Part shown: one piece after another, positions 2,463 through 55,304 of the stretch
Position numbering within the stretch: the stretch's first letter is position 1
Layout: the number at the start of each line of letters is the position of its first letter
Source: an uncultured Synechococcaceae cyanobacterium
GTDB lineage: Bacteria > Cyanobacteriota > Cyanobacteriia > PCC-6307 > Cyanobiaceae
Reading direction: 5' to 3'
Length of the DNA: 55,304 nucleotides
Assembly: GCA_903907855.1 (NCBI GenBank)
Contig: CAIVPT010000130.1
Coordinates: 1-55,304 of the forward strand
The notes under the pieces: model-generated
What the model was told of the DNA's origin: nothing
What the model saw: the letters and a program-made list of their open reading frames with translations, nothing else
Database searches by the model: none
Position numbers and translations under genes: made by a program

Positions 2463-5400
2463 TCAGGCGGTGAGCTGCTGCAGCGCCAGCAACTGCCAGT
2501 GGCGGCAATCGGCCGGTGACGACCGGTAGAACAGATCCCAGGCATCGCCCTTGTGGAGGCCATACTCCTGCGACGGCACCGTGGGATGGCACTGCTGCCA
2601 GCCCGCCCGCACCGCGTGGCCGATCACCACATCGAGCGCGAGGTCATCGTCGAACTGCACCTGGGGATTGGCGGTCACAAAGGCGATCAGGGTCAGCAGG
2701 GTTTCGGTGCAGAGCTGCCGATATTCGGGCGCCTCGATCTTGCCCAACAGTTGTTCCACCAGGGCCGCGAAATTGCGCTCACCAGGGGTCTTCTCGCTCA
2801 GCAGCGGGCCGCTCTCCAGCCGGTTGCGCCGCTCCAGCTTGTCGCCGATCACGATGCCGCGGCAGTGGTGCAGCAGATCCCAGATGCCGGCGTGGAAGTT
2901 GCGCGGCACCCGCCCCAGGGCCCCCAGCCGCATGCGGTGCTGCAGCCAGCCGCCCGCCTTGGGCAGCTCCTCCAACGGATCGGGCACCTCCCAGCGCACG
3001 CGACCGCGCAGGTGCAGCTGCTCCTTGCGCTGCAGGGCCGCCCGGGCGTGCTCCACATCCGCCAGCACCGCCCGCAGCCGCCGCCGGATCTGGTGGGGCG
3101 GCAGGGCACAGAGGGCTTCGAACGCATCGGAGGGGCTCAGGTCGTCCGCGGCCGCCAGCTCACTGGTGAGCAGCAACAGCAGCTGGCCGAGCTGGAGGGT
3201 GAGGCTGCCGCTGAGCAGGTTGGGCTCATGCCGCGCCAGGCCGTCGAGGGCGAGCAGCAACTCCTGCTGCAGCATCCCCTCCCGACCATCTTCGCCCCCG
3301 AAGCGGCGAATGCGGGCGGCGATCGTGCGGCTGCCGAGCGGCTGGCAGATCAGGGCATCGTTGGTGTAGTTGCGACCCACCACCACCTGCTTCTGGCGCA
3401 CCAGCAGGTCGGTGAGGGCATCCTCGAGGCGGGGGTGCACCAGGCCCATGGCGCCGGCAGCGCGGCGCACCACATTCCAGTCGGCGCGCGCCAGGGCCCG
3501 GCGATACACCTCCTGCAGCAACACCATCAACTTCACCGGCGGCCCGGGCATCGGCCCCTGCAGCCGGGCGTTGGGCCCCAACCGCCGGCCCAGCAGCTCG
3601 AGCACCTCCGCCTGCTCCTCCAGCGAACGGCTGTGCCAGAGCCGTTCCGCCAGGTCGGCCACCGGCGTCTCGTCGAGCTCCTGCTCCTGCTGGGCGGTGA
3701 GGGGCGCGCGGCTCGTGATCGGAGGCAGAAGGGTTTGCTCGCTCGGCCAGAGGGTGCAGGCGGCGAGCGCCTGATCCGGCAGCTCCACCACGCTGGCCTG
3801 GCTCACCAGCTGCGCCAGCGGCGCCAGCTGCACCGACACCCCCTCCAGATCGCCGCGGAGCAGATCGCGGCCGAGCCTCAGAAAAGCCTCCGAATCGTGC
3901 TGGAAGGCGGCGGCGGCCACCGGCACCAGCAGCAGCGGCGCACCGGCGCCACGCCAATGGCGCTGCAGCAGACGCACCTCCGCCGCCACCGTGTCCACCA
4001 GCTGCTGGGGATCGTCGGCCAGGTAGAAGGTGTCCTCCTCCAGCACCGCGGGCAGGTAGGCCACCAACTCATCGCCGAGGCGATAGAGCCGGGCGGTGGC
4101 CATGGTTTCCATGCGCACCGGCGGATGGCCGCTCAGGCCAAGCCGGGGGTTGGCACCCACCGTCGCCATGCGCTGGGCCAGTTCCCGCGAGCTGGCGATG
4201 CGGGTGGTGGTGGCAGAAGCCTCGGGGGGCGGGTTGACCGCCAGCCCCGCCTGGCTCAGGAGGGCGGCGATGGCGGCATCGGCGGGCACCAGGCTCACCA
4301 GCACCTCGCTGGCGCCGAGCGGAGCCCCCAGCCGCCGCTGGCAGGGGTCGAGATCCTCCGGGGTGATCAGGCCATGCAGCAGCAGATCCGAGAGCCAGGT
4401 GAGGCTCTGGGTCCAGAGCAGCGGCACGTTTTCGTTGGGTTGGCGGGACTGGCTGCCGGGGTTGCGGCGCTCCGCGGCGATGGCCTCCTCCGGCACCAGG
4501 TACAGCTCGGGGAGCAGCGGCACCCCATCCACCGCCTCACTCAGCTCCTCGAGCCGGCGGCGCCAGCGCCGGGCCTCCTCCCAACGCTCCTCACAGCAGG
4601 CCGTGATCAGCTCATAGGCCAGAAACAGGGGCCATTCGCACTCGATGTGCTCGAACTCGGCCAGCTCCTCCGGTTCGTAGTGCAGGCGGGTCACGTCCTC
4701 CACCACGGTCTGGTGACCATCGCGACGGAAGCGCTTGTAGCCGTAGGCGCCCCCCAGATCGGCGCGGATGCGGGCGCGGGTGCGCTCCACCAGGGCCGCG
4801 TCATCCACCGCCCAGGCGGGGTAGCCGATCACCGACAAGCAGGCGCTGTCGACCTCCTTGCTCCCCGACTCCCGGGGCAGGAGGGCCGCCAGGGCGCGGC
4901 GCAACCGCACCACCGCGTCGTGGGGGATCACCAGGCAACAGCTGCCATCACCATGGGGCCCGTAGAGATCCACGCCATCAAGAGCCTCCAGGGCCGCCTT
5001 CACCAGGCCGATTGAGCTGGCGTTGCGCTCCGGCAGGCCGTGGTTGCCCTTGTCCCCCCGCTCCCAGATGCCGTAATCGGCCACCCGGTAGGCGCGGCAC
5101 ACGTAGTACACCAGGTTCTGCACGAAGTCCCGCTCGGCGCCGCTCTGCACCACCACCAGGCCCGAGCGGGTGAGCTGGGCGAGCTGCAGCAGGAACAGGG
5201 CGGTGGCGTCGAGCTGCAGGTGCCCCCAGCCGTCGTCGGCCACCGCCGGCAGGCCGGTGTCGGTGTCGAACTTGGCGTGGAGAGAATCGAGCGGATCGAG
5301 GCTGCCCTTGAACCGCTCCACCTTCGCGGCCTGACGCAGCATGGCGGCGAGCAGGCCGCGCATCAGCTGCAGCACCCGCTGCTCGAGCTCAAAGGAACGG

Positions 5401-5663
5401 CGGCAGGGCCCGCGCAGACGGCGATGGGCGAGGGCCAGGCCCCACACGCACTGAATCGAGTACACGCAATCGCGCACCCAGGCGTCGCCGTAGTTGCCGT
5501 GCACGGTGTTGGCGGTGCTGGCGGGCAGCAGGCCGGTGAGGGGATGCTGGCGGCTGAGCACCACGGCGTCGATCTGCCGATCGAGCTCCTGCAACACGGC
5601 CCAGGCTTGCGGGTCAGCCCCCCGGGCGGGCGGGGGAACGGTGGAAACGGGACCGTGGGGCAT
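2463..5663 (-). CDS. Glycoside hydrolase family 15 / phosphorylase kinase alpha-like protein
   Basis: The product has 1066 residues. The N-terminal half has GH15-type sequence, for example NTVHGNYGDAWVRDCVYS near residue 50, GYKRFRRDGHQT, and WPLFLAYELITACCEERW. This resembles the alpha/beta subunits of eukaryotic phosphorylase b kinase rather than compact bacterial glucoamylases. The C-terminal 500 residues are helical and contain RNYTNDALICQPLGSRTIAA, also typical of the PhK-like cyanobacterial proteins. The ATG at 5663 follows a proline-rich start (MPHGPVSTVPPPARG); an upstream in-frame extension would overlap the divergent gene at 5719. No signal peptide is seen, so it is probably cytoplasmic. 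A role in glycogen or other alpha-glucan metabolism is inferred. The gap to the divergent WecG-like gene is only about 55 nt. Confidence 0.75.
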   Translation of the reverse strand: MPHGPVSTVPPPARGADPQAWAVLQELDRQIDAVVLSRQHPLTGLLPASTANTVHGNYGDAWVRDCVYSIQCVWGLALAHRRLRGPCRRSFELEQRVLQLMRGLLAAMLRQAAKVERFKGSLDPLDSLHAKFDTDTGLPAVADDGWGHLQLDATALFLLQLAQLTRSGLVVVQSGAERDFVQNLVYYVCRAYRVADYGIWERGDKGNHGLPERNASSIGLVKAALEALDGVDLYGPHGDGSCCLVIPHDAVVRLRRALAALLPRESGSKEVDSACLSVIGYPAWAVDDAALVERTRARIRADLGGAYGYKRFRRDGHQTVVEDVTRLHYEPEELAEFEHIECEWPLFLAYELITACCEERWEEARRWRRRLEELSEAVDGVPLLPELYLVPEEAIAAERRNPGSQSRQPNENVPLLWTQSLTWLSDLLLHGLITPEDLDPCQRRLGAPLGASEVLVSLVPADAAIAALLSQAGLAVNPPPEASATTTRIASSRELAQRMATVGANPRLGLSGHPPVRMETMATARLYRLGDELVAYLPAVLEEDTFYLADDPQQLVDTVAAEVRLLQRHWRGAGAPLLLVPVAAAAFQHDSEAFLRLGRDLLRGDLEGVSVQLAPLAQLVSQASVVELPDQALAACTLWPSEQTLLPPITSRAPLTAQQEQELDETPVADLAERLWHSRSLEEQAEVLELLGRRLGPNARLQGPMPGPPVKLMVLLQEVYRRALARADWNVVRRAAGAMGLVHPRLEDALTDLLVRQKQVVVGRNYTNDALICQPLGSRTIAARIRRFGGEDGREGMLQQELLLALDGLARHEPNLLSGSLTLQLGQLLLLLTSELAAADDLSPSDAFEALCALPPHQIRRRLRAVLADVEHARAALQRKEQLHLRGRVRWEVPDPLEELPKAGGWLQHRMRLGALGRVPRNFHAGIWDLLHHCRGIVIGDKLERRNRLESGPLLSEKTPGERNFAALVEQLLGKIEAPEYRQLCTETLLTLIAFVTANPQVQFDDDLALDVVIGHAVRAGWQQCHPTVPSQEYGLHKGDAWDLFYRSSPADCRHWQLLALQQLTA

Positions 5664-5718
5664 GGGGCAGCCGCCGTCGGGGGGGACCTTAGATTTTCTC
5701 CCGCTGACCCCCCCGGCC

Positions 5719-6441
5719 ATGGCAGCCATCGTGACCGCTCCGGTCCGCACCCGCGTGTTAGGAATCAATGTGAATGCGTGCGGCGACGCGTTCGCGGCCG
5801 CCCTTGACCTCCACGGGCACGGCGGCGGTCAGGTGGTCACCCTCAATGCCGAGATGACGATGGCCGCCCGCGCCGATCCCGCCCTGGGGGAGGTGATCGA
5901 GGCGGCCCAGCTGGTGATTCCCGATGGCGCCGGTGTGGTGTGGGCCCTGGGCCGCCAGGGCCTGCGGGTGCCGCGCAGCCCCGGCATCGAGCTGGCGCGG
6001 CGCCTGCTGGAGCATGGGGCCCGCCACGGCTGGCGGATGGCCCTGGTGGGGGCCTCACCCGCCACCATGGAGCGCCTGCGGGAGCGGCTGGCGGCCGAGA
6101 TTCCCGGGCTGCAGCTGGCCCTGGCCTGCCACGGGTACCAGAGCGCCGAAACCTGGCCGGGCATCGAGAACGAGTTGCTCACCCTCCAACCCGACCTGGT
6201 GCTGGTGGCCCTGGGGGTGCCCCGCCAGGAAACCTGGATCCACGACCTGCGCCCCGCCTACGGCCTGTGGATGGGCGTGGGCGGCAGTTTCGATGTGTGG
6301 GCCGGCATGAAAAAAAGGGCCCCCGGCTGGATGGGGGCCCTGCAGATCGAATGGCTGTACCGATTGGTGCAGGAGCCGCACCGTTGGCGCCGCATGCTCG
6401 CCCTGCCGGAATTCGCCTGGGCGGTGCTGCGCGGCGGTTAA
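5719..6441 (+). CDS. WecG/TagA/CpsF family glycosyltransferase
   Basis: The product has 240 residues. Family motifs are clear: TLNAEMTMAARADP followed by IPDGAGVVWA (conserved Asp-Gly), then VALGVPRQETWI and GVGGSFDVWAGMKKRAPGWM, and a C-terminal EWLYRLVQEPHRWRR. Relatives transfer N-acetylmannosamine(-uronic acid) onto undecaprenyl-linked GlcNAc during teichoic acid, enterobacterial common antigen or capsule synthesis. Partners would include a WecA/TagO-type initiator such as the one at 21492. The chosen ATG gives the usual family length. A -10-like TAGATT sits at 5690-5695. Confidence 0.88.
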   Translation: MAAIVTAPVRTRVLGINVNACGDAFAAALDLHGHGGGQVVTLNAEMTMAARADPALGEVIEAAQLVIPDGAGVVWALGRQGLRVPRSPGIELARRLLEHGARHGWRMALVGASPATMERLRERLAAEIPGLQLALACHGYQSAETWPGIENELLTLQPDLVLVALGVPRQETWIHDLRPAYGLWMGVGGSFDVWAGMKKRAPGWMGALQIEWLYRLVQEPHRWRRMLALPEFAWAVLRGG

Positions 6442-6444
6442 CCC

Positions 6445-7107
6445 TCAGACCGAGGCGCGGATCCGACCGCGCATGCGGCGCGAGAAGGCCAGGCCGACGC
6501 CTGCGCCCACGATCGGCAGAGGACCGGGAACGAAGGGGCTGGGGACGACGGCCTTGGTGAAGAAATTACCGCCGGAGGAATTCAGCTGGGATCCATTGAC
6601 GCTCCGATACTGAATGCGGGCCTCAAGCGTGGCTCCAGCGGGGGCAACGCCATCGGGGATCCGCAGTGACATCAGGCTGTTGGCGAAATCCAACTGGCTG
6701 ATGTTGGTGTCCAGCATGGCCCAAGCCGAATTGTGATCATCATAGTCATTACTGGCGAAGTTGATGATCTTGCTTGGGATGCTCAGGCTGCTGGTGATGC
6801 CGTCGCCCTGCACACTCAAGTTATCCAGGGTGAAGGGGGTGGTCCAAGCACCGGTGAACTTGAACTGGAGGCGCACTTCACCGTAGGCGTTCCCTGGGCT
6901 GGGGGGCGGCGAAAACACACCGGTGAAACCGTCGCGCTCCAGAACGTTGGACGGAGTGGAGGGGTCGAAGGACAAGCAGGTGGCCGAGGGATCGGACGGC
7001 TTGCACGCCGCGTGAGCAGGAGCCACGCCTGCGCTCACAGCAACGCCGGAGGTGAGAAGAAGACCGAGGGCGAAACCGCGAAGAAAGCGCGTACGCATGT
7101 TTTTCAT
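6445..7107 (-). CDS. Secreted protein with PEP-CTERM-like C-terminal sorting tail
   Basis: The product has 220 residues. A classical signal peptide occupies about residues 1-33: basic MKNMRTRFLRG, a hydrophobic core GFALGLLLTSGVAV, and AHA before a likely cleavage site. The middle looks like an extracellular beta-rich domain. The tail is a VPGPLPIVGAGVG segment, then LAFSRR and a basic end, the pattern of cyanobacterial PEP-CTERM-type anchors (motif, hydrophobic stretch, Arg-rich end). Such proteins are processed by an exosortase-like enzyme; none is in this window. Base composition is visibly lower in GC than the neighbours. Function is unknown. Its stop is 3 nt from the convergent WecG-like gene. 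Confidence 0.7.
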   Translation of the reverse strand: MKNMRTRFLRGFALGLLLTSGVAVSAGVAPAHAACKPSDPSATCLSFDPSTPSNVLERDGFTGVFSPPPSPGNAYGEVRLQFKFTGAWTTPFTLDNLSVQGDGITSSLSIPSKIINFASNDYDDHNSAWAMLDTNISQLDFANSLMSLRIPDGVAPAGATLEARIQYRSVNGSQLNSSGGNFFTKAVVPSPFVPGPLPIVGAGVGLAFSRRMRGRIRASV

Positions 7108-7187
7108 GTGAGGTCTTCCAGGAGTATGGCGAGCGGCGTGAATCTTGTCACCCTCAAAAGCAACAAATGTGGGCTCAAATAGCGCGA

Positions 7188-7215
7188 ATCATATTGCACT
7201 TTATCCTGATGAAAA
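7188..7215 (-). promoter_or_regulatory. Candidate sigma-70 promoter of the PEP-CTERM-like gene
   Basis: On the minus strand TTTTCA (7215-7210) is followed after 16 nt by TATGAT (7193-7188), a good -10 box, in an unusually AT-rich patch about 80 nt before the ATG. The -35 match is weak, so this is a proposal only. Confidence 0.35.
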
Positions 7216-7348
7216 GCGTTGCATATTCTTCGCAGACTCGCCCTGCCCTCACCTCGCGACCCTGATGGCAGCTGTGATGGCGGCTTTGCTGGCGGCTGGC
7301 CGCGTCGTGGCGTGGCGGCCGACGGCGGCACGCAAAAAGGCGGCACAT

Positions 7349-7379
7349 AAAAAAAGCAGATGTCCAAGGGACACCTGCT
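7349..7379 (-). terminator. Rho-independent terminator downstream of psbK
   Basis: On the minus strand a 10-bp stem with one mismatch (arms at 7378-7369 and 7365-7356, three-nucleotide loop) is followed directly by seven T at 7355-7349. It lies 70 nt past the psbK stop, in the right orientation. Confidence 0.8.
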
Positions 7380-7447
7380 GGGGGAAAACGGAAGGTCCTG
7401 GGAAAGGGGGAGGACCGGGATCGAGGGGGGTCTGCGGCCAGGCCGGC

Positions 7448-7618
7448 TCAGCGGAAGCCCACCGAGGCCTGCCAGACGAACGCCAGCAGCAGGAAGAACA
7501 GGGGGATGATCGGCAGGATGTCGACCAGCGGACCGAATGCCTGGTAGGCCTCGGGCAGCTGGGCGAGGGGGGCCTGGAGGTGGGAACCGGCCAGCAGCGA
7601 GAGAACCATGGGCGTCAT
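7448..7618 (-). CDS. psbK: Photosystem II reaction center protein K
   Basis: The precursor has 56 residues. The mature region reads [19 protein letters not shown] and continues into a single membrane helix ending [11 protein letters not shown], which matches PsbK closely. PsbK is a one-helix subunit at the edge of photosystem II in the thylakoid membrane, and it is made with a short N-terminal presequence that is removed. Two starts are possible, MTPM at 7618 and the second Met at 7609; neither has an obvious Shine-Dalgarno. It lies upstream of a strong terminator and downstream of tgt on the same strand, 55 nt apart, as in other Synechococcus-type genomes. Confidence 0.93.
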
Positions 7619-7673
7619 GGGAATGGGGGATGGGGGACGGGGCCCGACGGGCCATCCCGACAAGGCCTGGACG

Positions 7674-8843
7674 CTACCACGTGTGGGCGGCTCGAGAATC
7701 GGGCTCCCAGGGAGCGAAATCCTCTGAAAAACAACCCTCCGCGATCGCGCGGGCCATGGCCGTGCTGAAGCGCAGCAGGGTGGTGAGGTTGTGCAGGCTC
7801 AGCAGGGTGCGGCCGAGCATCTCCTCGGCCCGGATCAGGTGATGCAGATAGGCGCGGCTGTGCAGGCGGCAGGCCAGACAGGCGCAGCTGGCATCAAGCG
7901 GCGTGTGGTCGTGGCGGAAACGGGCGTTGCGCAGGTTCCAGCGTTCGCCCCCCACCAGCGCCGTGCCATGCCGCCCCAGGCGGGTGGGCAGCACGCAGTC
8001 GAAGAGATCGAACCCCTGGGCCACCGCCACCGCCATCTCCCGGAAGCTGCCCACCCCCATCAGGTAGCGGGGCCGGTCCTCCGGCAGCAGCGGCGCCACC
8101 AGGCGCACGATTTTGTGCATCTCCTCCGGCGGCTCCCCCACGCTCACCCCGCCCACGGCGATGCCGGGCAGGTCCATCGCGGCCACGATCCGCGCCGACT
8201 CCTGCCGCAGATGGGGGAAGCACCCCCCCTGCACGATGCCGAACAACGCCTGGCCGGGGCGGTCGTGGGCGGCCCGGCAGCGCTCCAGCCAGTCGTGGGT
8301 GCGGCGACAGGCGGCGGCCACATCGGCCTCGCTGGCGGGATAGGGGGGGCACTGGTCGAAGGCCATCGCCACATCCGCGCCGAGGGCCATCTGGATGCGC
8401 ATCGACTCCTCGGGGGTGAGGGTGATGCGGCGGCCGTCGCGGGGGGAACGGAAGGTCACCCCCTCGTCATCGATGCGGTTGATGTCCGCCAGGCTGAACA
8501 CCTGGAATCCGCCGGAGTCCGTGAGGATCGGCCCCGACCAGCCCATGAAGCGGTGCAGCCCACCGGCCTCAGCGACGATCTCCTCGCCCGGCTGCAGATG
8601 CAGATGAAAGGTGTTGGCCAGCACCATGCGGGCGCCGGTGTCGGCCAATTGGGGCGCCGTGATCCCCTTCACCGTGGCCAGGGTGCCCACGGGCATGAAG
8701 CGCGGCGTGGGCACCGGGCCGTGGGGGGTGTCGAGGCAGCCGCAGCGGGCGCGGGTGCGCGGGCAGCGGGCGTGGATCCGGAAGGCAGAGTGGGAGGCGA
8801 TCGCCGCGTGCCGTCGCTGGTTCGACGCTACGCGCCGCCGCAC
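7674..8843 (-). CDS. tgt: tRNA-guanine transglycosylase (queuine)
   Basis: The product has 389 residues from this start. It exchanges guanine for the queuosine precursor at position 34 of GUN-anticodon tRNAs. Visible signatures are [15 protein letters not shown] near the N-terminus, the substrate-binding [13 protein letters not shown] with the conserved Asp, [13 protein letters not shown], and the zinc site CACLAC with a downstream His in SLHNL. The start is unclear: no ATG precedes the conserved core, and the GTG at 8843 adds an atypical basic leader ([11 protein letters not shown]). The true start may be another non-ATG codon nearer the core. The divergent cobS gene begins just 14 nt away, so the two promoters must lie within coding DNA or one start is wrong. 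Confidence 0.92.
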
Positions 8844-32162: not shown

Positions 32163-32915
32163 TCAGGGCGGCGCCTGCCGGCGCGACTCGCGCTGCATCC
32201 AGCTGATCCAATCGGCCGAGATGCCCTTCGGACACGCCGCCTCGCACTCCAGATGGCCGCTGCAGCCCCCAAACCCCTCGGCCTCCATCGCGGCACGCAG
32301 GGCCCGCACCCGGCCGGTGCGTTCCGGTTGCCCCTGGGGCAGCTGGGCGAGATGGGCGACCTTGGCGGCGGTGAACAGGCTGGCGGAGGCGTTGGGGCAG
32401 CTGGCCACGCAGGCGCCGCAGCCGATGCAGGTGGCGGTATCGAAGGCGCGGGAGGCCTGGTCGCGGCCGATCAGGCTGGCGTTGGCGTCCGGGGCACTGC
32501 CGGCGTTCACCGAGCAGTAGCCGCCGGCCGCGATGATGCGATCGAGGGCGGAGCGGTCGACCGCCAGGTCCTGCAGCGGCGGGAAGGCGCGGGCGCGGAA
32601 GGGCTCGAGCGTGAGGGTGGCGCCATCGGCGAAGCTGCGCAGATAGAGCTGGCAGACCGTGGCCAGGGCCACGGGGCCATGGGCCTGCCCATTCACCAGG
32701 AAGCCACAGGCGCCACAGATGCCTTCGCGGCAATCGTGATCGAAGCCCACCGGCCGTTGGCCAGCGCTGATCAACCGCTCGTTGAGCCCATCGAGGGCCT
32801 CCAGCAGCGACAGATCGGTCGAGACCCCCTCGAGCCGGTGGGTCTCGAAGGCACCGGGCTCGCCGGGGCCGGCCTGCCGCCAGATGCGCAGGGTGAGGGA
32901 CACGGTGCGGCTCAT
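32163..32915 (-). CDS. sdhB: Succinate dehydrogenase/fumarate reductase iron-sulfur subunit
   Basis: The product has 250 residues. The plant-type [2Fe-2S] ligands are in DCREGICGACGFLVNG, and the bacterial ferredoxin-type clusters are in TCIGCGACVASCPNAS and CSGHLECEAACPKGI. It passes electrons from the SdhA flavin to the quinone site at the SdhC anchor. The ATG at 32915 begins MSRTVSLTLRIWRQ; upstream in-frame sequence overlaps sdhA. The stop of sdhA is 10 nt before. Confidence 0.93.
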   Translation of the reverse strand: MSRTVSLTLRIWRQAGPGEPGAFETHRLEGVSTDLSLLEALDGLNERLISAGQRPVGFDHDCREGICGACGFLVNGQAHGPVALATVCQLYLRSFADGATLTLEPFRARAFPPLQDLAVDRSALDRIIAAGGYCSVNAGSAPDANASLIGRDQASRAFDTATCIGCGACVASCPNASASLFTAAKVAHLAQLPQGQPERTGRVRALRAAMEAEGFGGCSGHLECEAACPKGISADWISWMQRESRRQAPP

Positions 32916-32925
32916 CGATCGCGGC

Positions 32926-34835
<1,910 letters not shown>

Positions 34836-34836
<1 letters not shown>

Positions 34837-35567
34837 CAGGTGCCCCCCCGCAGGGCCAGGGCCAGGGGCAGCAGCGCGAAGCCACCACCCAGGAGCAGGG
34901 CCAGTCCCCGGCCGGCGAGGCGGATGGCCCGGCCGTTGTCCGGCTCCAGCAGGCCGAGGCTGCGGTGGGCGCTCTCCACCCCGTGCAGCAGGTGCAGGCC
35001 CACCGCCAACCCTGCGGCGGCGTAGAGGGCCAGGGAGAGGGGGCTGGCCAGCACCGCCGCCAGCGCCGCCAGCTCGGCACCAGCCGACGGCCGCGGCCAG
35101 CGCAGCTGGGCCAGGTGCACCACCAGAAACAGCAACAGCAGAGCGCCGCTCCAGGGGAGCCAGCGCCCGGCGCGCGCCACGAGCGCTTCGATCACGCCGG
35201 AGCGGCGGCTGGCACGGCTGCCTGGGAGCGGACCACCGGCGAGGGCATTGCGCCGGGCCCGCCCCAGGCTGAGGAGCGGGTGCAGCAGCAGCGCTGCCGC
35301 CAGGGCGATCTCCAGGGGCGGCAGCCAGGGCTGGTGGTGCAGGGTGGCGGCCCAGGCCTCGAAGGCGGGGGGGGCCAGCAGGGCCAGCGACACCCCCGCC
35401 AGGTGCAGCGCCAGGAAGAGCACCAGCAGCAGGCCGCTGAGGGGGATCAGGGCGTCCAGGGGTGCGTGGGCGGGGTCCGTCCGACGATGGCACCGGAGCC
35501 CGGCAGCTGACAACGGCCGCGGCGGCGGCTGCGGCTTCTGGCTCCGTGCTGCGGCTTCTGGCTCCAT
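34836..35567 (-). CDS. sdhC: Succinate dehydrogenase cytochrome b558-type membrane subunit
   Basis: The product has 243 residues with about five hydrophobic helices. His residues at the right places for haem ligation are visible in [26 protein letters not shown] and [14 protein letters not shown]. This is the single-anchor (B-type) SdhC known from Bacillus and Wolinella relatives. The ATG at 35567 makes an odd hydrophilic start, [13 protein letters not shown], encoded by the second copy of a 20-bp tandem repeat. It leaves only 3 nt to the divergent MFS gene, so the real start may be further in, though I see no better one. Confidence 0.8.
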
Positions 35568-35570: not shown

Positions 35571-36863
35571 GTGAGATCCCCCCGGTCGCCCGCCGTGCGC
35601 CTCTCGCGCCCCTCCACCTATCTCTGCGCCTTCCTCACCCTGCTCAACGACCGGCTGGGGGAGAGCATCGTGTTTCCGCTGTTGCCCTTCCTGCTGGCCG
35701 GGATCAGCCGCGACGCCCGCACCCTGGGCCTGCTCACCGGCACCTACGCCCTCTCCCAGTTCGCCTTCACGCCGCTGATCGGTGCCCTGAGCGACCGCTA
35801 CGGGCGCCGGCCCGTGATCGCCACCTGCGTGGCGGGCTCGGTGCTGGGCCTGGGCCTGTTCGCCCTAACGATCAGCCTGCCCTGGTGCTCCCGCTTCCCA
35901 GTGGCGAACGCCGAGGGTTGGCCCCTGGCCCTGCTGTTTGTGGCGCGCATCATCGATGGCGTCAGCGGCGGCACCGCGGCCACTGCCACCGCCGTGCTGG
36001 CGGACATCTCACCACCCGAGAAGCGGGCCCGCGCCTTCGGGCTGGTAGGGGTGGCGTTCGGGCTGGGCTTCGTCCTCGGCCCCTTCCTCGGGGGTGTGCT
36101 GGCGGAACGCAGCCTGAGCCTGCCGGTGTTGGTGGCTGTGGCGGTGGCGGTGGTCAATCTGGTGCTGGTCCTGGCGCTGTTGCCCGAGACCCTGCCCGCC
36201 CAGGCCCGGCTGCCGATGCCCCGCAAACGGGAGCTGCAGCCCTTCCACCAGCTGGGGCGCGTCTTCAGCAACCCCCGCATTCGCCGCCTGGCGGCCGCCT
36301 TTTTTCTCTTCTTCCTGGCCTTCAGCGCCTTCACCGGCGTTCTGGTGCTGTTCCTGCAGCAAACCTTCAGCTGGGGCCCCGGTCTGACCTCCACCGCCTT
36401 TCTGGTGGTGGGGGTGGTGGCCATGGTGGTGCAGGGGGGCCTGATCGGTCCGCTGGTGAAGCGCTTCGGGGAACAACAACTGACGGCAACGGGCATCGGC
36501 TTCGTGATCGCCGGCTGCCTGTTGATCCCCCTGGCCACCACCGCCACGGCGCGCGGCCTGGTGTTCAGCGCCGTGGCGCTGCTGGCGGTGGGCAGCGGCC
36601 TGGTCACCCCGTGCCTGCGCAGCCTGGTGTCACGCCGGTTGGCCGACAGCGGCCAGGGGGCCGCCCTGGGCAGCCTGCAGGGGCTGCAGAGCCTCGGCAG
36701 CTTTCTGGGACCACCCCTGGCCGGGCTGGCCTACGAGGGCGTGGGCCGCACGAGTCCCTTCTGGCTGGCGATCCTGCTGCTGGGCGGCGTCCTGGCGCTG
36801 ATCGGCGGAGGCGGATCGGGGAAAAATCAGTCAGAAAACGAAAGAAATGGCGATATCGCGTGA
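35571..36863 (+). CDS. Major facilitator superfamily transporter (TetA/YajR-like)
   Basis: The product has 430 residues and 12 predicted helices. The MFS loop 2-3 signature is visible in [14 protein letters not shown], and helix 5 has [18 protein letters not shown], typical of drug:H+ antiporter family 1. It resembles tetracycline-type effluxers, but the substrate cannot be read. Start is GTG at 35571, with an alternative GTG at 35595 that still leaves all helices. It ends 29 nt before the ligand-binding protein gene and could be part of the same operon. Confidence 0.85.
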
Positions 36864-36892: not shown

Positions 36893-38023
36893 GTGCCTGG
36901 GTCCACCGATCGCAGCCCTGGTGCTACCGGTGCCATGGTTGGTGTCGGGTTGATCGTCCTGGTCAGTGCGGTCTTCTGGTTCTGGCACCAGCGGCTCCGG
37001 CCCGTGGTGGTGGCGGTGGGGGTGGACGAACCGGTGGTGAACGGCGCGGTGATCGACCCCAGCGACCGCAACACCGCTGACCTCTACCTGGAGGACCACC
37101 CGCACAGCCGCATCCGACTGGTGGATCACTTCAACCCAGCGGATCCCGCCCGCGGTCCCGCGTCGATCGCCGCCCTCAAGCGCCGTGGCGTGGCGTTGTT
37201 CGTGAGCACGCAGGCCTCCAGCCACGCGGTGCCCAGCCTGCCCCAGTTCGCCGATGGCCGGGCCCTGGCGATCAACGTGGCGTCGGTGAGCAACGCCCTC
37301 AGCGGCCACAAGGATTTCTTCCTGCGGATCGTGCCCGACCTGAGCAGCGAGCAGCGGGCGATCGCCCGCGAGATCGATCGCCTGCCCGGCCGCCGCCTGC
37401 TGGTGCTGCAGGACACGGGCAACCGCGCCTACACCGACCCCGCCTTCCGCGCTTTCGCCGCCGCCCTCGCCCCCTCAGGCCGCTGGCGAATCGAACGCCG
37501 CGAACTCCCCATCGCCCGATTCAAGGTCAGCCAGGACCGGCACCTGCTCGCAGGCGACTTCGACGCCCTCTACATCCTGGGCGGCGGCTTCGTGCCGATC
37601 ATCGGCAACCTCTCCCAGCTCTTTCACAGCCTGAACCCCCAGGCGCCGATCCTCCTCACCCCCTGGGCCCGTTCGCCGCAGGTGAGCGGGAGTGCCGGCC
37701 CGGCCGCTGCCCGGATCCGGGTGGTGAGCCCCTACCCATCCCGGCGCCAGGATCCGCGGGTGGATGCCTTCCTGCGCCGCTTCGAGCGGCGGTTCGGCTA
37801 CACCCCTTACGCCATGGCCCTCGGCACCCACCAGGCCCTGGAGTTGCTGGATCAGGCCGTGACCCAGGGCGCCAGCAGCCCCGAGGGCGTGCGGCGCCAC
37901 CTTCTCTCCGAGCCGGAGCACAACACCAGCTTCGGCCGGATCCGCTTCGATGCCTACGGGGACGTGCAAGCGGAGTATCACGTGTTCAACCTCGCGGACG
38001 ACGCCCCCGTGGCCGCCCGATGA
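36893..38023 (+). CDS. Membrane-anchored periplasmic binding protein, type 1 (branched-chain amino acid-like)
   Basis: The product has 376 residues. An N-terminal hydrophobic segment at about 15-32 (MVGVGLIVLVSAVFWFW) acts as signal or membrane anchor. The body has a two-lobe Peripla_BP_6-like layout: an opening VVVAVGVDEP, FVSTQASSHAVPSLPQF, FFLRIVPDLSSEQRAIA, and FDALYILGGGFVPIIGNL. The ligand is unknown. Start is GTG at 36893, or ATG at 36935 directly before the hydrophobic segment. The TGA overlaps the kinase ATG by four nucleotides; no ABC permease or ATPase is nearby, so it likely acts as a ligand sensor for the kinase rather than a transporter part. Confidence 0.75.
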   Translation: MPGSTDRSPGATGAMVGVGLIVLVSAVFWFWHQRLRPVVVAVGVDEPVVNGAVIDPSDRNTADLYLEDHPHSRIRLVDHFNPADPARGPASIAALKRRGVALFVSTQASSHAVPSLPQFADGRALAINVASVSNALSGHKDFFLRIVPDLSSEQRAIAREIDRLPGRRLLVLQDTGNRAYTDPAFRAFAAALAPSGRWRIERRELPIARFKVSQDRHLLAGDFDALYILGGGFVPIIGNLSQLFHSLNPQAPILLTPWARSPQVSGSAGPAAARIRVVSPYPSRRQDPRVDAFLRRFERRFGYTPYAMALGTHQALELLDQAVTQGASSPEGVRRHLLSEPEHNTSFGRIRFDAYGDVQAEYHVFNLADDAPVAAR

Positions 38024-39837
38024 AGCACCCGCGCCCCGGCAAGGGTTCAGCACCCACCAGCTTCTGGCGCTTCAGCCTGCAGCACGAATGGATGGCCGGG
38101 GCCACCGCCGGCGCCCTGTTCATCGCCGCCGCCGCCCTCAGCCTGGAAACGCTCCGCAACCGCTCTCTGGCCCTGCAGCGGATCGAGGCCAACCGGGTGG
38201 AGCACCACCTGAACGTGCACCTGAACGAAGCCCTCGAGCAGCTCGACGCGTTCCTGAAGCGGCCCGCACAGGGCTGGCGGGAGGGGAGTTTGGTGCTGCT
38301 GCCCGCCTTCTCCGACCTCTACGAACTGGGGGACCAGAACGAGGTGCTGCAGGTGCTCAAGGCCACCCCCGACAGCCGGGTGTTTCCGGGCTTTTCCTTC
38401 GAGGGCACCCCGATCGGCCCCTATCTGCGTCAGCAGGAAGTGCCGCAACCCGACGGCACCACTCCGGTGATCCGCGGCATGGAGGACGAGAGGGCGAGCC
38501 TGTACGTGCACCGCCACATCCAGGGCCGGGCCCTGCTGGCCCGCATCGAACTGGGCTACGTCCGTGGCTTTCTGCAGCGCTACAGCGCCTTTTCGGGCAC
38601 CCCAACCCTGCTGGTGAGCCGCGATGGCTTCGTGATGATCTCGGGGGCCGAGGAACTGCAGATCTCGAGCCTCGATCTGCGCACAGACGCCGCCCGGAGC
38701 GGCAATCCCGAGCCGCTGTTGGCGGGCGAGCGCCTCTGGCGGCCGGTGATCTCCGACGGGCAGCAGCTGGGGGTGAAGATCATCACCCTGCTGCCGGAGG
38801 ACCATCTCGCCCCCTTCGAGCAGGTGCTGCTGAGCGCGGGGGGGGCCGTGCTCCTGCTCAGCGCCCTGGTGTTCTTCTGGAAAAACCGGCGACTGCGGCG
38901 CGAGCTGTTCACACCGGTGGGGCGCTTCGTCGAGCAGATCGAAGCCCAGGAGGAGAGGCTGCGCCTGGGGCTCCCCCCCTTGCCCAGCGCCTCCCCCGGC
39001 AGCGCAGGCTCCAGCCGCTTCGAAGAGCTGGCGGCGTTGCAAGGGAGCTTCGAGCGGCTGATCGAGACGCTGGCCGCCCGCGATCGCTCCCTGGGGGAAG
39101 CCCGCCGACGGGAGCAGCTCCAGGAGGAGCGGCAGCGGCTCGAGCTGCGCGACAAGCTCCACAGCAGCCTGATGGCCGCCACCATCGCCCACGAGATCAA
39201 CCTGCCCTTGAGCACGATCCGCATGCTCTGCCACCAGGCCAGCGAGAAGCTCCTCCACGGCGAGGCCCCCCTCGACATCGAGGCCCTGGTGCACGATTTG
39301 AGTGAGCAGAGCCAGCAGGTGAGCGGCGTGATCGAGAAGATGCGCATGCTGCTGCGCAACGTGCAAAGCGAAGCACACCCCACCGATCCGGTGGCGGTGT
39401 TGCAGGGCGCCTGCCTGGCGGTCAAACCGCTGCTGCGGCGGGATCGGGTGCAGCTGGAGGTGCGCGGGCTGGAGCCACCACCGGCCCTGCTGCTGCAGGG
39501 CGACGCCGTACCGCTGCAGATGGCGGTGAGCAATCTGCTGCGCAATGGCATCGAAGCGGCGGCCGAACGCCCCCCCGGCCAGCGCCACGTGCGGCTGGGG
39601 CTCGCGCGCGAACCGGGCGGCGTGGTGGTGGAGGTGGCCGACAGCGGCTCCGGTTTCCGGTTCGATCCCGAGGGGGACACCGTGTTGCACAGCGATAAGC
39701 CGGGGGGCAGCGGCCTGGGGTTGTTCGTGGTGCGGACCACCGTGGCCAACCACCGCGGCCGGCTCAGCTTCGGGCGTTGCCGGGAGCTGGGCGGGGCACA
39801 GGTGCGCCTGCACCTGCCCTTGGAGGGGCAGCCATGA
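38020..39837 (+). CDS. Transmembrane sensor histidine kinase, FixL/DctB-like core
   Basis: The product has 605 residues. Two membrane helices at about 24-42 and 268-288 enclose a periplasmic domain of some 225 residues. A coiled region at 330-380 leads to the acceptor His at 391 in ATIAHEINLPLSTIRML. The ATPase part shows NLLRNGIEAA near 505, DSGSGF near 541, and GGSGLGLFVV near 562. The HEIN-PL type H-box is used by FixL- and DctB-like kinases. The ATG overlaps the binding-protein stop, and the stop overlaps the regulator start (both ATGA), so the three proteins are made together. The signal is presumably the binding protein or its ligand. Confidence 0.88.
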   Translation: MKHPRPGKGSAPTSFWRFSLQHEWMAGATAGALFIAAAALSLETLRNRSLALQRIEANRVEHHLNVHLNEALEQLDAFLKRPAQGWREGSLVLLPAFSDLYELGDQNEVLQVLKATPDSRVFPGFSFEGTPIGPYLRQQEVPQPDGTTPVIRGMEDERASLYVHRHIQGRALLARIELGYVRGFLQRYSAFSGTPTLLVSRDGFVMISGAEELQISSLDLRTDAARSGNPEPLLAGERLWRPVISDGQQLGVKIITLLPEDHLAPFEQVLLSAGGAVLLLSALVFFWKNRRLRRELFTPVGRFVEQIEAQEERLRLGLPPLPSASPGSAGSSRFEELAALQGSFERLIETLAARDRSLGEARRREQLQEERQRLELRDKLHSSLMAATIAHEINLPLSTIRMLCHQASEKLLHGEAPLDIEALVHDLSEQSQQVSGVIEKMRMLLRNVQSEAHPTDPVAVLQGACLAVKPLLRRDRVQLEVRGLEPPPALLLQGDAVPLQMAVSNLLRNGIEAAAERPPGQRHVRLGLAREPGGVVVEVADSGSGFRFDPEGDTVLHSDKPGGSGLGLFVVRTTVANHRGRLSFGRCRELGGAQVRLHLPLEGQP

Positions 39838-40427
39838 ACACCGCCCCGATCGCACCAGTCCTGACCTGCGTGGTGGTGGAAGACCAGCGGATGTTCCTGC
39901 AGATGCTGGTGGTGATGCTGCGTTCCCTCCCCGGTCTGGAGGTGGTGGCCACCGCCACCACGGCGGCGGAGGGGATCGAGGCCTGCGAGACGCTGGCACC
40001 CGACCTGCTCCTGCTCGATCTGACCCTGCCGGATGAGAACGGCCTGGCGGTGGCGCTGGCGCTGGGGCGCGTCAACCCGGAGGCCCGGCTGATCGTGCTC
40101 TCGGCTGCCGCCAGCAGCTTTGTCTGCGACAGCGCCATGCAACCGATGCTGCACGCCGTGGTCGACAAGATCGATGCCTGCGAGGCCCTCACCACCGAGA
40201 TCGGCGAGCTGCTAGGGGAGAGGTTCGACAAGCCGGCGCCGCTCACGGCCCGGGAGGAGGAGGTGCTGCGACTGATCGGCCAGGGGTTCAGCAATGGCCA
40301 GATCGCCGAGCGCCTCACCCTCTCGGTGCACACGGTGGGAACGCACCGGCGCAACATCAGCGGCAAGCTGGGGCTGCGGGGGGCCGAGCTGGTCCGCCAT
40401 GCCACCCTGTGGCAGATACGGAGCTGA
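39834..40427 (+). CDS. Response regulator, receiver plus LuxR-type DNA-binding domain
   Basis: The product has 197 residues. Receiver residues are present: acidic pair Glu16-Asp17 (VVVEDQRMFL), phospho-acceptor Asp62 (LLLLDLTLPDENG), Ser90 and Lys112 (VVDKIDA). The output domain is LTAREEEVLRLIGQGFSNGQ, then AERLTLSVHTVGTHRRNI, the LuxR/FixJ helix-turn-helix. The start was set by the ATGA overlap with the kinase gene. It is the natural partner of that kinase. The target genes are unknown; the next gene downstream is ppk. Confidence 0.9.
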   Translation: MNTAPIAPVLTCVVVEDQRMFLQMLVVMLRSLPGLEVVATATTAAEGIEACETLAPDLLLLDLTLPDENGLAVALALGRVNPEARLIVLSAAASSFVCDSAMQPMLHAVVDKIDACEALTTEIGELLGERFDKPAPLTAREEEVLRLIGQGFSNGQIAERLTLSVHTVGTHRRNISGKLGLRGAELVRHATLWQIRS

Positions 40428-40503: not shown

Positions 40504-42720
40504 ATGAGCAGCGGATCCAGAACGAGCGGATCCCAGAGCAGCGGGGGCTCGGGCGGCACGGCAGGCGAACCCAGGCCTGCGCTAGAGGCTGACCTCTACA
40601 TCAACCGCGAGCTGAGCTGGCTGGCCTTCAACCACCGGGTGCTGGCCCAGGCGCTCAACGAATACACCCCCCTGCTGGAGCAGGCGAAGTTCAGCGCCAT
40701 TTTCAGCAACAACCTCGATGAGTTCTTCATGGTGCGGGTGGCCTCGCTCAAGTCGCAGCTGGAGGCCGGCGTCACCAGCCGCAGCGACGACGGCCTCACG
40801 CCGCTGGAGCAGCTGGAGGCAATCCAGCAGAGACTGCGCCCCCTGCTGGAGCTGCAGCAACAGCATTACCGCTATTCGCTCAAGAGTCACCTGGCCGAAT
40901 ATGGCGTATACCTGCTCGATTACCAACGGCTCAACAAGCGGCAGAAAAGCTGGGCGGATGAAACGTTCCGCACCTCAATCTTCCCGGTGCTGACGCCGCT
41001 GGCGGTGGATCCGGCCCACCCCTTCCCGTTCATGAGCAACCTCAGCCTGAACGTGGCGGCCCTGATCCGCGACCCCGACACCGGCCAGCAGCAGTTCGCG
41101 CGGGTGAAGGTGCCGCAGAAGACCCTGCCGCGCTTCGTGCCGATCCCCACCGAGATGTGCGAGCGCCATCCGCGGCCCGTGTTTGTGGCGGTGCCGCTGG
41201 AGCAACTGGTGGCCTTCAACCTGCATCTTCTCTTCCCCGGCATGGTGATCGAGGGGCATTACTTCTTCCGCGTCACCCGCGATGCCGACCTGGAACTGCG
41301 TGACCTGGAGGCCGACGACCTGATGGAGGCCCTGCAGGAGGGGCTGCGCAAGCGGCGCATGGGGGGGGAAGTGGTGCGGCTGGAGGTGGCCGACGAGATG
41401 CCCGAGGAGGTGGTGCAGCTGCTGATGGAGGGCCTGGAGGTGGAGCCCGAAGACCTGTACCGCATCAATGGTCCGCTGGGCCTCGACGACCTGATGAGTC
41501 TGCTGGCGATCCCTTTGCCCGAGCTCAAGGATCCGCCCTGGAAAGGGCGAACGGTGTCGGCCCTGGCGCGGGCACAGAAGAGCCTGCTGGAGGATGGCTC
41601 GATCAAGGAAGAGGAATTCGAGAGCATCTTCCGCGTGCTGCGCCGTCGCGACGTGCTGTTGCACCACCCCTACGACCTGTTCGCCACCTCGGTGGAGGAA
41701 TTTCTGAACCAGGCGGCCGACGACCCAGCCGTGCTGGCAATCAAGATGACCCTCTACCGCACCTCAAAGGATTCGCCGGTGGTTGGGGCGTTGATTCGCG
41801 CCGCCGAAAACGGCAAGCAGGTGATGGCGCTGGTGGAGCTCAAGGCCCGCTTCGACGAGGACAACAACATCCAGTGGGCTCGCCAGCTGGAGCGCTCAGG
41901 GGTGCACGTGGTGTACGGCGTGCTCGGCCTCAAGACCCACACCAAGGTGACGCTGGTGGTACGACGTGAGAAGGAGAGGCTGCGCAGCTACGCCCACATC
42001 GGCACCGGCAACTACAACTCCCGCACCTCAAGCCTCTACACCGATCTTGGCCTCCTCACCGCCCGCGAAGAGTTCGGCCAAGACCTGGTGGAACTGTTCA
42101 ATTACCTCACCGGCTTCTCCAAGCAGCAGAGTTTCCGCAAGCTGCTGGTGGCGCCGGTGACCCTGCGCCGTGGCATGGAGGCCCTGATCCGTCGCGAGAT
42201 CGAGCATGCCCAGGCGGGCCAGGGCGGCCATATCCGGGCCAAGATGAATGCCCTGGTGGATCCGGCGATCATCGCGCTGCTCTACGAGGCCTCCCAGGCC
42301 GGCGTGCGCATCGAGCTGGTGATCCGCGGCATGTGTTCGCTGCGGCCGGGGCTGCCGGGGGTGAGCGAAAACATCTCGGTGCTCAGCGTGATCGGACGCT
42401 TCCTCGAACATTCGCGTGTGTTCTGGTTTGCCAATGCTGGTGAGCCGGAAATGTTCCTCGGCAGCGCCGACTGGATGCCGCGCAATCTCGATCGCCGCGT
42501 GGAAGCCGTGGCACCGGTGGAAGACGAAAGCCTGCGCCGCCAGCTGGAGAAACTGATGCTTCTTTATCTAGAGGACACCACGGCCTGGGTGATGCACAGC
42601 GATGGGCAGTTCAGCCAGCGGCAGCCGGAGGGGGAGCAGAACTCGGCGCAGGCGGCGCTCATGGAGCGTTGGCGCACCGGCCTGGGGGGTGAGGCATCGC
42701 CCGCGACCGCCACAAGGTAA
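40504..42720 (+). CDS. ppk: Polyphosphate kinase 1
   Basis: The product has 738 residues. It polymerises ATP gamma-phosphate into polyphosphate. N-domain INRELSWLAFNHRVLAQA and FSNNLDEFFMVRVASLK are clear. Catalytic-domain segments include IKMTLYRTSKDSPVV, ARFDEDNNIQWARQLE, and the two His residues in LGLKTHTKVT (the phospho-His region) and RFLEHSRVFWFAN. It is intact and of usual length. The Ser/Gly-rich first 25 residues are not conserved, so a later start is conceivable, but the ATG at 40504 is the best available. No clear Pho box is seen upstream. Confidence 0.95.
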   Translation: MSSGSRTSGSQSSGGSGGTAGEPRPALEADLYINRELSWLAFNHRVLAQALNEYTPLLEQAKFSAIFSNNLDEFFMVRVASLKSQLEAGVTSRSDDGLTPLEQLEAIQQRLRPLLELQQQHYRYSLKSHLAEYGVYLLDYQRLNKRQKSWADETFRTSIFPVLTPLAVDPAHPFPFMSNLSLNVAALIRDPDTGQQQFARVKVPQKTLPRFVPIPTEMCERHPRPVFVAVPLEQLVAFNLHLLFPGMVIEGHYFFRVTRDADLELRDLEADDLMEALQEGLRKRRMGGEVVRLEVADEMPEEVVQLLMEGLEVEPEDLYRINGPLGLDDLMSLLAIPLPELKDPPWKGRTVSALARAQKSLLEDGSIKEEEFESIFRVLRRRDVLLHHPYDLFATSVEEFLNQAADDPAVLAIKMTLYRTSKDSPVVGALIRAAENGKQVMALVELKARFDEDNNIQWARQLERSGVHVVYGVLGLKTHTKVTLVVRREKERLRSYAHIGTGNYNSRTSSLYTDLGLLTAREEFGQDLVELFNYLTGFSKQQSFRKLLVAPVTLRRGMEALIRREIEHAQAGQGGHIRAKMNALVDPAIIALLYEASQAGVRIELVIRGMCSLRPGLPGVSENISVLSVIGRFLEHSRVFWFANAGEPEMFLGSADWMPRNLDRRVEAVAPVEDESLRRQLEKLMLLYLEDTTAWVMHSDGQFSQRQPEGEQNSAQAALMERWRTGLGGEASPATATR

Positions 42721-54116: not shown

Positions 54117-55304
54117 ATGGTCTCCTTCCTCACCGTCGACGACGTCACGCAGATTTTTCCCCTGGCCGATGGTGGCCGCTATGTGGCCCTCAAGGACATC
54201 GACCTGGAGATCCGCGAGGGCGAATTCGTCTCGCTGATCGGCCATTCCGGCTGCGGCAAGAGCACCCTGCTCAACCTGCTGGCGGGCCTGGCGCAGGCCA
54301 GCCATGGCGGCATCCTGATCGATGGGCGGGAGGTAACCGAGCCGGGGCCCGACCGGATGGTGGTGTTTCAGAACTATTCGCTGCTGCCCTGGCAGACCGT
54401 GCGCCAGAACGTGGCGCTGGCGGTGAACCGGGTGATGGGCCAGCTGAGCGCAGCCGAGCGGCGCGAGATCGTGGAGCGCAACCTGGCGATGGTGGGGCTG
54501 GCGGCCGCCGCCGAGACATTTCCGGCGGAGCTCTCGGGCGGCATGAAGCAGCGGGTGGCGATCGCCCGCGCCCTGTCGATCCGCCCGCGGCTGCTGCTGC
54601 TCGATGAACCCTTCGGCGCCCTCGATGCGCTGACGCGCGGCAATCTGCAGGAGCAGCTGATGCGCATCTGCCAGGAGGCTGGCGTCACCACCGTGATGGT
54701 GACCCACGACGTGGATGAGGCCCTGCTGCTCTCCGACCGGGTGGTGATGATGACCAACGGTCCGGAGGCGGGCATCGGCCAGATCCTGCCGGTGCCGTTC
54801 GCGCGGCCCCGCCAGCGGTTGGCGGTGATGGAGCACCCCGACTACTACCGGTTGCGCAGCGAGCTGATCGGCTTCCTGCAGCAACAGCGGCGCCTGCGCC
54901 AGCGCCGGGCCACCAGCGCCGCCGCAGTTGCCGCGAGCGCACCGCCCGCCGCAGCCGCCGCGGCCCCCGCCAGCACCCCCACCACGGTGCGGCTCGGCTA
55001 CCTCCCGGGCCTCGACATCGCCCCGCTGGCGATGGCGATGGATCGCCACCTGTTCGATCAGGAGCGGGTAACGGTGATCCCGGTGCCGTTCGCCAACTGG
55101 GAACGGCTGGAGGAACGGCTGCGGGAGGGCGACCTGCAGGCGGCGATCACCTCCGCCTCCACACCGCTGGCCCTCGCCCTTGGCCTGAACGGCAGCAGCC
55201 CCTGGCCGGCGATCACGCCGATGACGGTGAGCCGCAACGGCAATGCCTTCTGCCTGGCCCGGCGCTTCCGGGAGGCTGGCGTACGCAGCCGGGCCGACCT
55301 GGCG
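54117..55304 (+). CDS. nrtC: Nitrate ABC transporter ATPase with NrtA-like domain, NrtC (partial)
   Basis: The frame stays open for 396 codons to the window edge. Residues 1-260 are an ABC ATPase: Walker A GHSGCGKST, Q-loop VVFQNYSLLPWQ, signature LSGGMKQR, Walker B LLLLDEP, and the His-loop VTHDVDEA. After an Ala/Pro-rich linker, a domain like NrtA begins with VRLGYLPGLDIAPLAMAM. This fused C-terminal domain marks NrtC, not NrtD, and in other cyanobacteria it mediates ammonium- and nitrate-linked inhibition of uptake. The rest of the gene and probably nrtD and narB lie beyond the window. Confidence 0.95.
   Translation, partial: MVSFLTVDDVTQIFPLADGGRYVALKDIDLEIREGEFVSLIGHSGCGKSTLLNLLAGLAQASHGGILIDGREVTEPGPDRMVVFQNYSLLPWQTVRQNVALAVNRVMGQLSAAERREIVERNLAMVGLAAAAETFPAELSGGMKQRVAIARALSIRPRLLLLDEPFGALDALTRGNLQEQLMRICQEAGVTTVMVTHDVDEALLLSDRVVMMTNGPEAGIGQILPVPFARPRQRLAVMEHPDYYRLRSELIGFLQQQRRLRQRRATSAAAVAASAPPAAAAAAPASTPTTVRLGYLPGLDIAPLAMAMDRHLFDQERVTVIPVPFANWERLEERLREGDLQAAITSASTPLALALGLNGSSPWPAITPMTVSRNGNAFCLARRFREAGVRSRADLA

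Follow-up and report, generated by a model that had tools for sequence, protein, structure and literature searches.

A candidate receptor cassette in which an anchored periplasmic binding protein is inherited with one sensor domain and the cytoplasmic output is exchanged

The window, the whole stretch of 55,304 nt that was analysed, carries three intact open reading frames encoding a type I periplasmic binding protein (PBP), a sensor histidine kinase and a LuxR-type response regulator (Table 1). The PBP frame begins with a GTG codon and encodes 376 aa. It matched Peripla_BP_6 with an E value of 6.5e-9 and 36.3 bits against a Pfam gathering cutoff of 31.7, which places it among the type I PBPs. 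A hydrophobic segment at approximately residues 12–30 lies within the predicted N-terminal helix, and neither a lipobox Cys nor an AXA site was found in the window PBP. The hydrophobic segment was present in all 26 aligned homologues and a lipobox in none of them; an AXA site was present in ten, so signal cleavage is possible for those ten. The motifs of the kinase were complete (H391, N box at 505, G boxes at 541 and 562), and in its AF2 model two predicted membrane helices flank a periplasmic domain of about 215–225 residues. In the regulator D62, S90 and K112 were all present, and the REC phosphoacceptor Asp together with the GerE helix-turn-helix assigns it to the NarL/FixJ type. The first-pass annotation had described an anchored type 1 PBP, 4-nt overlaps at both junctions and a two-helix kinase with a 225-residue periplasmic domain, and the Pfam match, the predicted helices and the two ATGA overlaps agree with that description. 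A scan of the cassette for promoters and terminators gave nothing above shuffled sequences.

Table 1. Features of the cassette and its flanks (positions in the window).
Feature	Position	Strand	Basis
MFS efflux-type transporter, insertion flank, outside cassette	35571..36863	+	Pfam MFS_1; ppk neighbour in relatives lacking the cassette at this site
PBP: anchored type I periplasmic binding protein (Peripla_BP_6, LivJ-like fold)	36893..38023	+	Pfam, AF2, VIA
Predicted N-terminal membrane anchor helix of PBP, residues 9-35	36917..36997	+	AF2 secondary structure, hydropathy of 26 homologues
ATGA stop/start overlap, PBP-kinase	38020..38023	+	Sequence; 4-nt overlap in 25/31 distinct homologues
Sensor histidine kinase, 605 aa	38020..39837	+	Pfam HisKA + HATPase_c
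Periplasmic sensor domain of kinase, residues ~45-264, predicted double-PAS/dCACHE fold	38152..38811	+	AF2, VIA, sensor profile
HisKA + HATPase_c catalytic core of kinase	39169..39825	+	Pfam
ATGA overlap, kinase-regulator	39834..39837	+	Sequence
NarL/FixJ-type (REC-GerE) response regulator, 197 aa	39834..40427	+	Pfam Response_reg 3.9e-14, GerE 1.4e-14
Polyphosphate kinase ppk1, other insertion flank, outside cassette	40504..42720	+	NCBIfam/Pfam

The cassette lies between an MFS transporter gene and ppk. In each of the 28 other genomes of the genus in which the ppk locus was read, MFS adjoined ppk without the cassette between them and was followed by the same sigma factor gene. The cassette was found at this site only in the window genome and its closest relative, G315. 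The fact that the empty site was found in 28 of 28 other genomes indicates that the cassette was inserted into an old block of MFS, ppk and sigma factor. The base composition of the cassette is not foreign-looking (69.8% GC vs 70.4% for the window), so the insertion rests on synteny. On the other side of the MFS gene, at 32163–35567 on the minus strand, is an operon that resembles those of succinate dehydrogenase/fumarate reductase; it encodes an iron-sulfur subunit (Fer2_3/Fer4) together with large (FAD-type) and membrane subunits, both of the latter assigned by eye.

MFS and ppk predate the cassette, and their proximity is therefore uninformative about regulation by it. The suggestion of the first-pass annotation that either might be its target was not supported by the empty-site comparison; both were rejected as partners, and the guess is corrected here. 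A sensor of phosphate or polyphosphate status with ppk under its control is accordingly a very improbable reading of the cassette. The ppk start is 77 nt downstream of the cassette on the same strand, but the adjacency of MFS and ppk is ancestral, ppk is absent among the neighbours listed for the other cassette loci, and the PBP is LivJ-like rather than PstS-like.

The AF2 model of the PBP (pLDDT 91.4) has the bilobal LivJ fold, with best VIA matches to 8z0g (Z 33.1, rmsd 2.8, 327 residues aligned) and 4gnr (Z 32.9). In LivJ the ligand residues are presumably S79, T102 and E226, the Ser holding the carboxylate and the Glu the amino group. In a profile alignment with LivJ, the equivalent of S79 (S109 in the window) was Ser in 26 of 26 PBPs. 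The position of T102 was Thr in 18 of the 26 and Val in the window PBP, and that of E226 was Pro in 25 of 26, beside an invariant Trp. The PBP family thus does not keep the three residues of the amino-acid-binding LivJ subgroup, and the Pro at E226, with the Val at T102 in the window, makes a plain alpha-amino acid less likely as the ligand.

The sensor domain of the kinase is predicted to have a double-PAS (dCACHE) fold. Its AF2 model, of moderate confidence (pLDDT 78, pTM 0.59), shows two PAS-like lobes after a long N-terminal helix, the whole lying between the two membrane helices. VIA matched it to 8w7p, a kinase extracellular domain (Z 14.5, rmsd 3.3, 211 residues aligned), and to 2p7j (Z 14.1). 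No Pfam Cache profile matched any of 21 receptors, the window kinase included; profiles often fail to detect Cache domains that have diverged. LuxQ was not among the 50 structural matches listed for the sensor model, which is no evidence of a different fold.

PBP and sensor domain were found together well beyond the window. The next gene encoded the same sensor part (kinase residues ~1–360) in 28 of 31 distinct PBP relatives, a recurrence which puts the pairing far beyond chance. The junctions of these 28 pairs were a 4-nt overlap in 25 (including L019, where the conserved start is 117 nt inside the first start of the frame), a 1-nt overlap in one and short gaps in two. The three unpaired PBPs were the first of a tandem pair at L035 and two orthologous stand-alone paralogues, one in the window genome (contig C90) and one in G315 (contig C76). 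At L035 (Burkholderiaceae), PBPs at 5488–6591 and 6694–7815 are followed by a single hybrid kinase with the same sensor domain.

Genome by genome, both families occurred together in 7 of 400 Cyanobiaceae genomes (PBP in eight, one of them with a PBP fragment, and sensor in seven; hypergeometric p 2.6e-14) and in 15 of 195 genomes of the purple-sulfur order (PBP in 16, counting a distant ordinary PBP in G893, and sensor in 15; p 1.6e-21). The trees of PBP and sensor were broadly congruent, with a distance correlation of 0.86 that was reached in none of 5000 permutations. In the PBP tree the cyanobacterial copies formed one supported group, inside which the forms with GGDEF output formed one subgroup. 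Adjacent genes inherited together would also yield such co-occurrence and congruence; these results therefore demonstrate a heritable unit and not contact between PBP and kinase. The PBP gene adjoins that of a transmembrane kinase with a periplasmic domain and the pair is conserved, as in a PBP-coupled sensor kinase, and we conclude that the PBP and the periplasmic part of the kinase are one heritable module.

The cytoplasmic output of this module is exchangeable while PBP and sensor domain stay together. A plain kinase followed the sensor in the window, L011 and L013, and a GGDEF domain in the Cyanobium loci L012, L014 and L022. Hybrid kinases with REC, Hpt, PAS or GGDEF domains were found in Chromatiaceae and others. 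At L013 (G140) the genes are ordered differently: the regulator (4510–4884) precedes the PBP, which it overlaps by 4 nt, and consists of a receiver that lacks a DNA-binding domain. Cassettes of Chromatiaceae have REC-GGDEF response regulators or CHASE-domain hybrid kinases as neighbours (L030 4911–5819, L026 2680–5898, L037 3322–5949), which suggests a c-di-GMP output there too.

Alternatively, the PBP might be an ordinary transport component, serving either an ABC importer or the MFS protein next to it, and lie beside a kinase by accident. It has the fold of LivJ-type transport proteins, and AgtB, PA0602 and PA4985 show that neighbouring substrate-binding protein (SBP) and kinase genes need not interact (PMC11113362). 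However, no permease was near the PBP at any locus checked. The window yielded no Urt/Liv-type permease, and its sole ATPase-like match was distant (54126–54716), in agreement with the first-pass annotation, which had found no ABC permease or ATPase beside the unit. No UrtB/UrtC-like reading frame was found in any cassette locus checked. Permeases in the searched genomes lay at a distance of some 37 kb or more, or on contigs other than that of the PBP wherever the latter was known, and BPD_transp_2 had no match anywhere in the cassette-bearing genomes G727, G730 and G731. Linked genes for a BPD_transp_2 permease and an ATPase, by which an importer component would be recognised, were thus lacking, and the assignment was rejected. 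As for the MFS, it is an older neighbour of ppk, and no MFS protein is known to use an SBP. We therefore give the transport explanation hardly any weight.

The dedicated partnership of PBP and kinase that the first-pass annotation had proposed is strengthened by these comparisons, since across phyla the PBP keeps its link with this sensor domain, including in receptors with a non-kinase output, since the two co-occur in individual genomes, and since PBP relatives do not lie beside ABC permeases. PBP genes regularly beside ABC genes or transcribed separately from the kinase, which had been named as evidence against the partnership, were not the pattern of the family, the two orthologous stand-alone paralogues being the exceptions.

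The distribution of the cassette is patchy. A plain-sequence scan of genome contigs with the window PBP alone gave no match, and a PBP profile scan of one genome per species gave 23 loci, in Cyanobium and many Chromatiaceae and also in Methylococcaceae, Desulfomonile, Burkholderiaceae and Verrucomicrobiales. Within a 388-genome sample of the class the PBP was confined to the family of the window, Cyanobiaceae. Among freshwater picocyanobacteria the carriers of the receptor cassette are few, among purple sulfur bacteria many, and this patchy distribution across phyla points to horizontal transfer. L067 (G893), a candidate kinase-first member, was rejected as an ordinary Peripla_BP_6 protein (77 bits) located 3' of a PAS kinase. 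At 348–677 of L040 (G352, contig C111) there is a 109-codon 3' fragment of a PBP gene from this family, apparently a pseudogene remnant.

G315 carries the same locus at approximately 92–93% DNA identity, and its PBP (L075 1260–1475, contig C8) has lost 948 nt in frame, so that anchor, tail and the overlap with the kinase remain. Its kinase and regulator are intact and under purifying selection (dN/dS 0.22 and 0.26). The stand-alone paralogue in the window genome (C90:8791–9909, minus strand; L010) is 54% identical to the window PBP and has no adjoining receptor. Its orthologue in G315 (L029 5932–7050) has 91% amino-acid identity to it and is also under purifying selection (dN/dS 0.39). The paralogue may serve the kinase in trans, the kinase may work without a PBP, or the loss may have happened recently or reflect an error of assembly.

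A PBP deletion beside a conserved kinase and regulator is our main reason for withholding certainty about a co-sensor. It would fit a kinase whose dCACHE domain itself senses the ligand, as in most dCACHE receptors, with the PBP as a dispensable accessory that concentrates or antagonises the ligand. The close folds KinD, DctB, PctA and Mlp24 were solved with directly bound ligands. This explanation is nevertheless unlikely, because the pairing of PBP and sensor persists through output swaps and across phyla, and because G315 was the only case of a sensor without a linked PBP among the 22 sensor-bearing genomes of the Cyanobiaceae and purple-sulfur-order samples (400 and 195 genomes).

We propose that the three genes are a self-contained, horizontally mobile cassette in which a ligand-binding anchored PBP docks on the dCACHE-like domain of the kinase and thereby sets the phosphorylation of the regulator, a reading to which we assign a probability of about 75%. 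In the periplasm the anchored PBP would bind a small ligand and make contact with the dCACHE-like domain of the kinase whose gene comes directly next. As the PBP opens or closes upon ligand binding, the packing of the membrane helices may change, and the kinase would then phosphorylate, or stop phosphorylating, the LuxR-type regulator, which in turn would control its target genes. PBP and sensor would act as one input module, with a kinase, a hybrid kinase or a diguanylate cyclase as output in relatives. The sequence comparisons support a co-sensor role for the PBP, dedicated to this kinase as in LuxP-LuxQ or TorT-TorS.

Several known receptors resemble the cassette in part. LuxP is a soluble, sugar-PBP-like protein and LuxQ a hybrid kinase; the sensor domain of TorS is helical; the ligand of XylFII is xylose; NspS is a PotD-like SBP and MbaA has GGDEF-EAL. 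LuxP-LuxQ gave no sequence match in the searches of this analysis. As in the cassette, LuxP of this autoinducer-2 system acts through a PAS/Cache-fold kinase domain (PMC6321045, PMC8694187). In TorT-TorS and XylFII-LytS, too, a dedicated PBP acts on a sensor kinase (PMC6321045), although PBP and sensor belong to other families. NspS-MbaA (polyamines, c-di-GMP; PMC8967002, PMC9993111), likened here by description, resembles the GGDEF form of Cyanobium in that a PBP acts on a c-di-GMP receptor. The Dret_0059 receptor of Desulfohalobium retbaense (PDB 5ERE; Wu 2017, as cited in PMC8694187) joins a LivJ-like PBP and, C-terminal to it, a tandem PAS/dCACHE domain in one fused polypeptide, in the order of the window genes; the cassette, by contrast, encodes two proteins, and its PBP has its own predicted anchor. 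Residues 32–350 of 5ERE matched the window PBP (Z 30.1) and residues 352–593 the sensor (Z 13.3), the latter tied with matches to many other dCACHE domains. At identities of 17% (PBP) and 9% (sensor), 5ERE is an analogue.

We found no paper in the open-licence literature that describes the cassette family. The family stands apart through its anchored PBP and exchangeable output, and by analogy would work like LuxP-LuxQ, TorT-TorS and XylFII-LytS. A wider reading is tentative and, in our view, less likely than not to hold in full: an unnamed receptor system whose plug-in unit of anchored PBP and dCACHE domain moves between purple sulfur bacteria and picocyanobacteria, with transcription or c-di-GMP as output, a ligand other than the usual amino acids, and a stand-alone paralogue that can supply the PBP in trans where, as in G315, the linked copy has gone.

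Receptors activated by PBPs are believed to be widespread, and proven pairs are few because partners are hard to recognise (PMC11113362). Characterised SBP-kinase pairs were gene neighbours in 10 of 11 cases, and neighbours are not always partners, AgtS and AruS having been negative (PMC11113362). In the cassette family the partnership can be read from genomes, as PBP and sensor are constant and the output varies. Picocyanobacteria offer both kinase and GGDEF versions, and a natural PBP deletion serves as control, so that the family lends itself to a clean test of how one input is coupled to two kinds of output.
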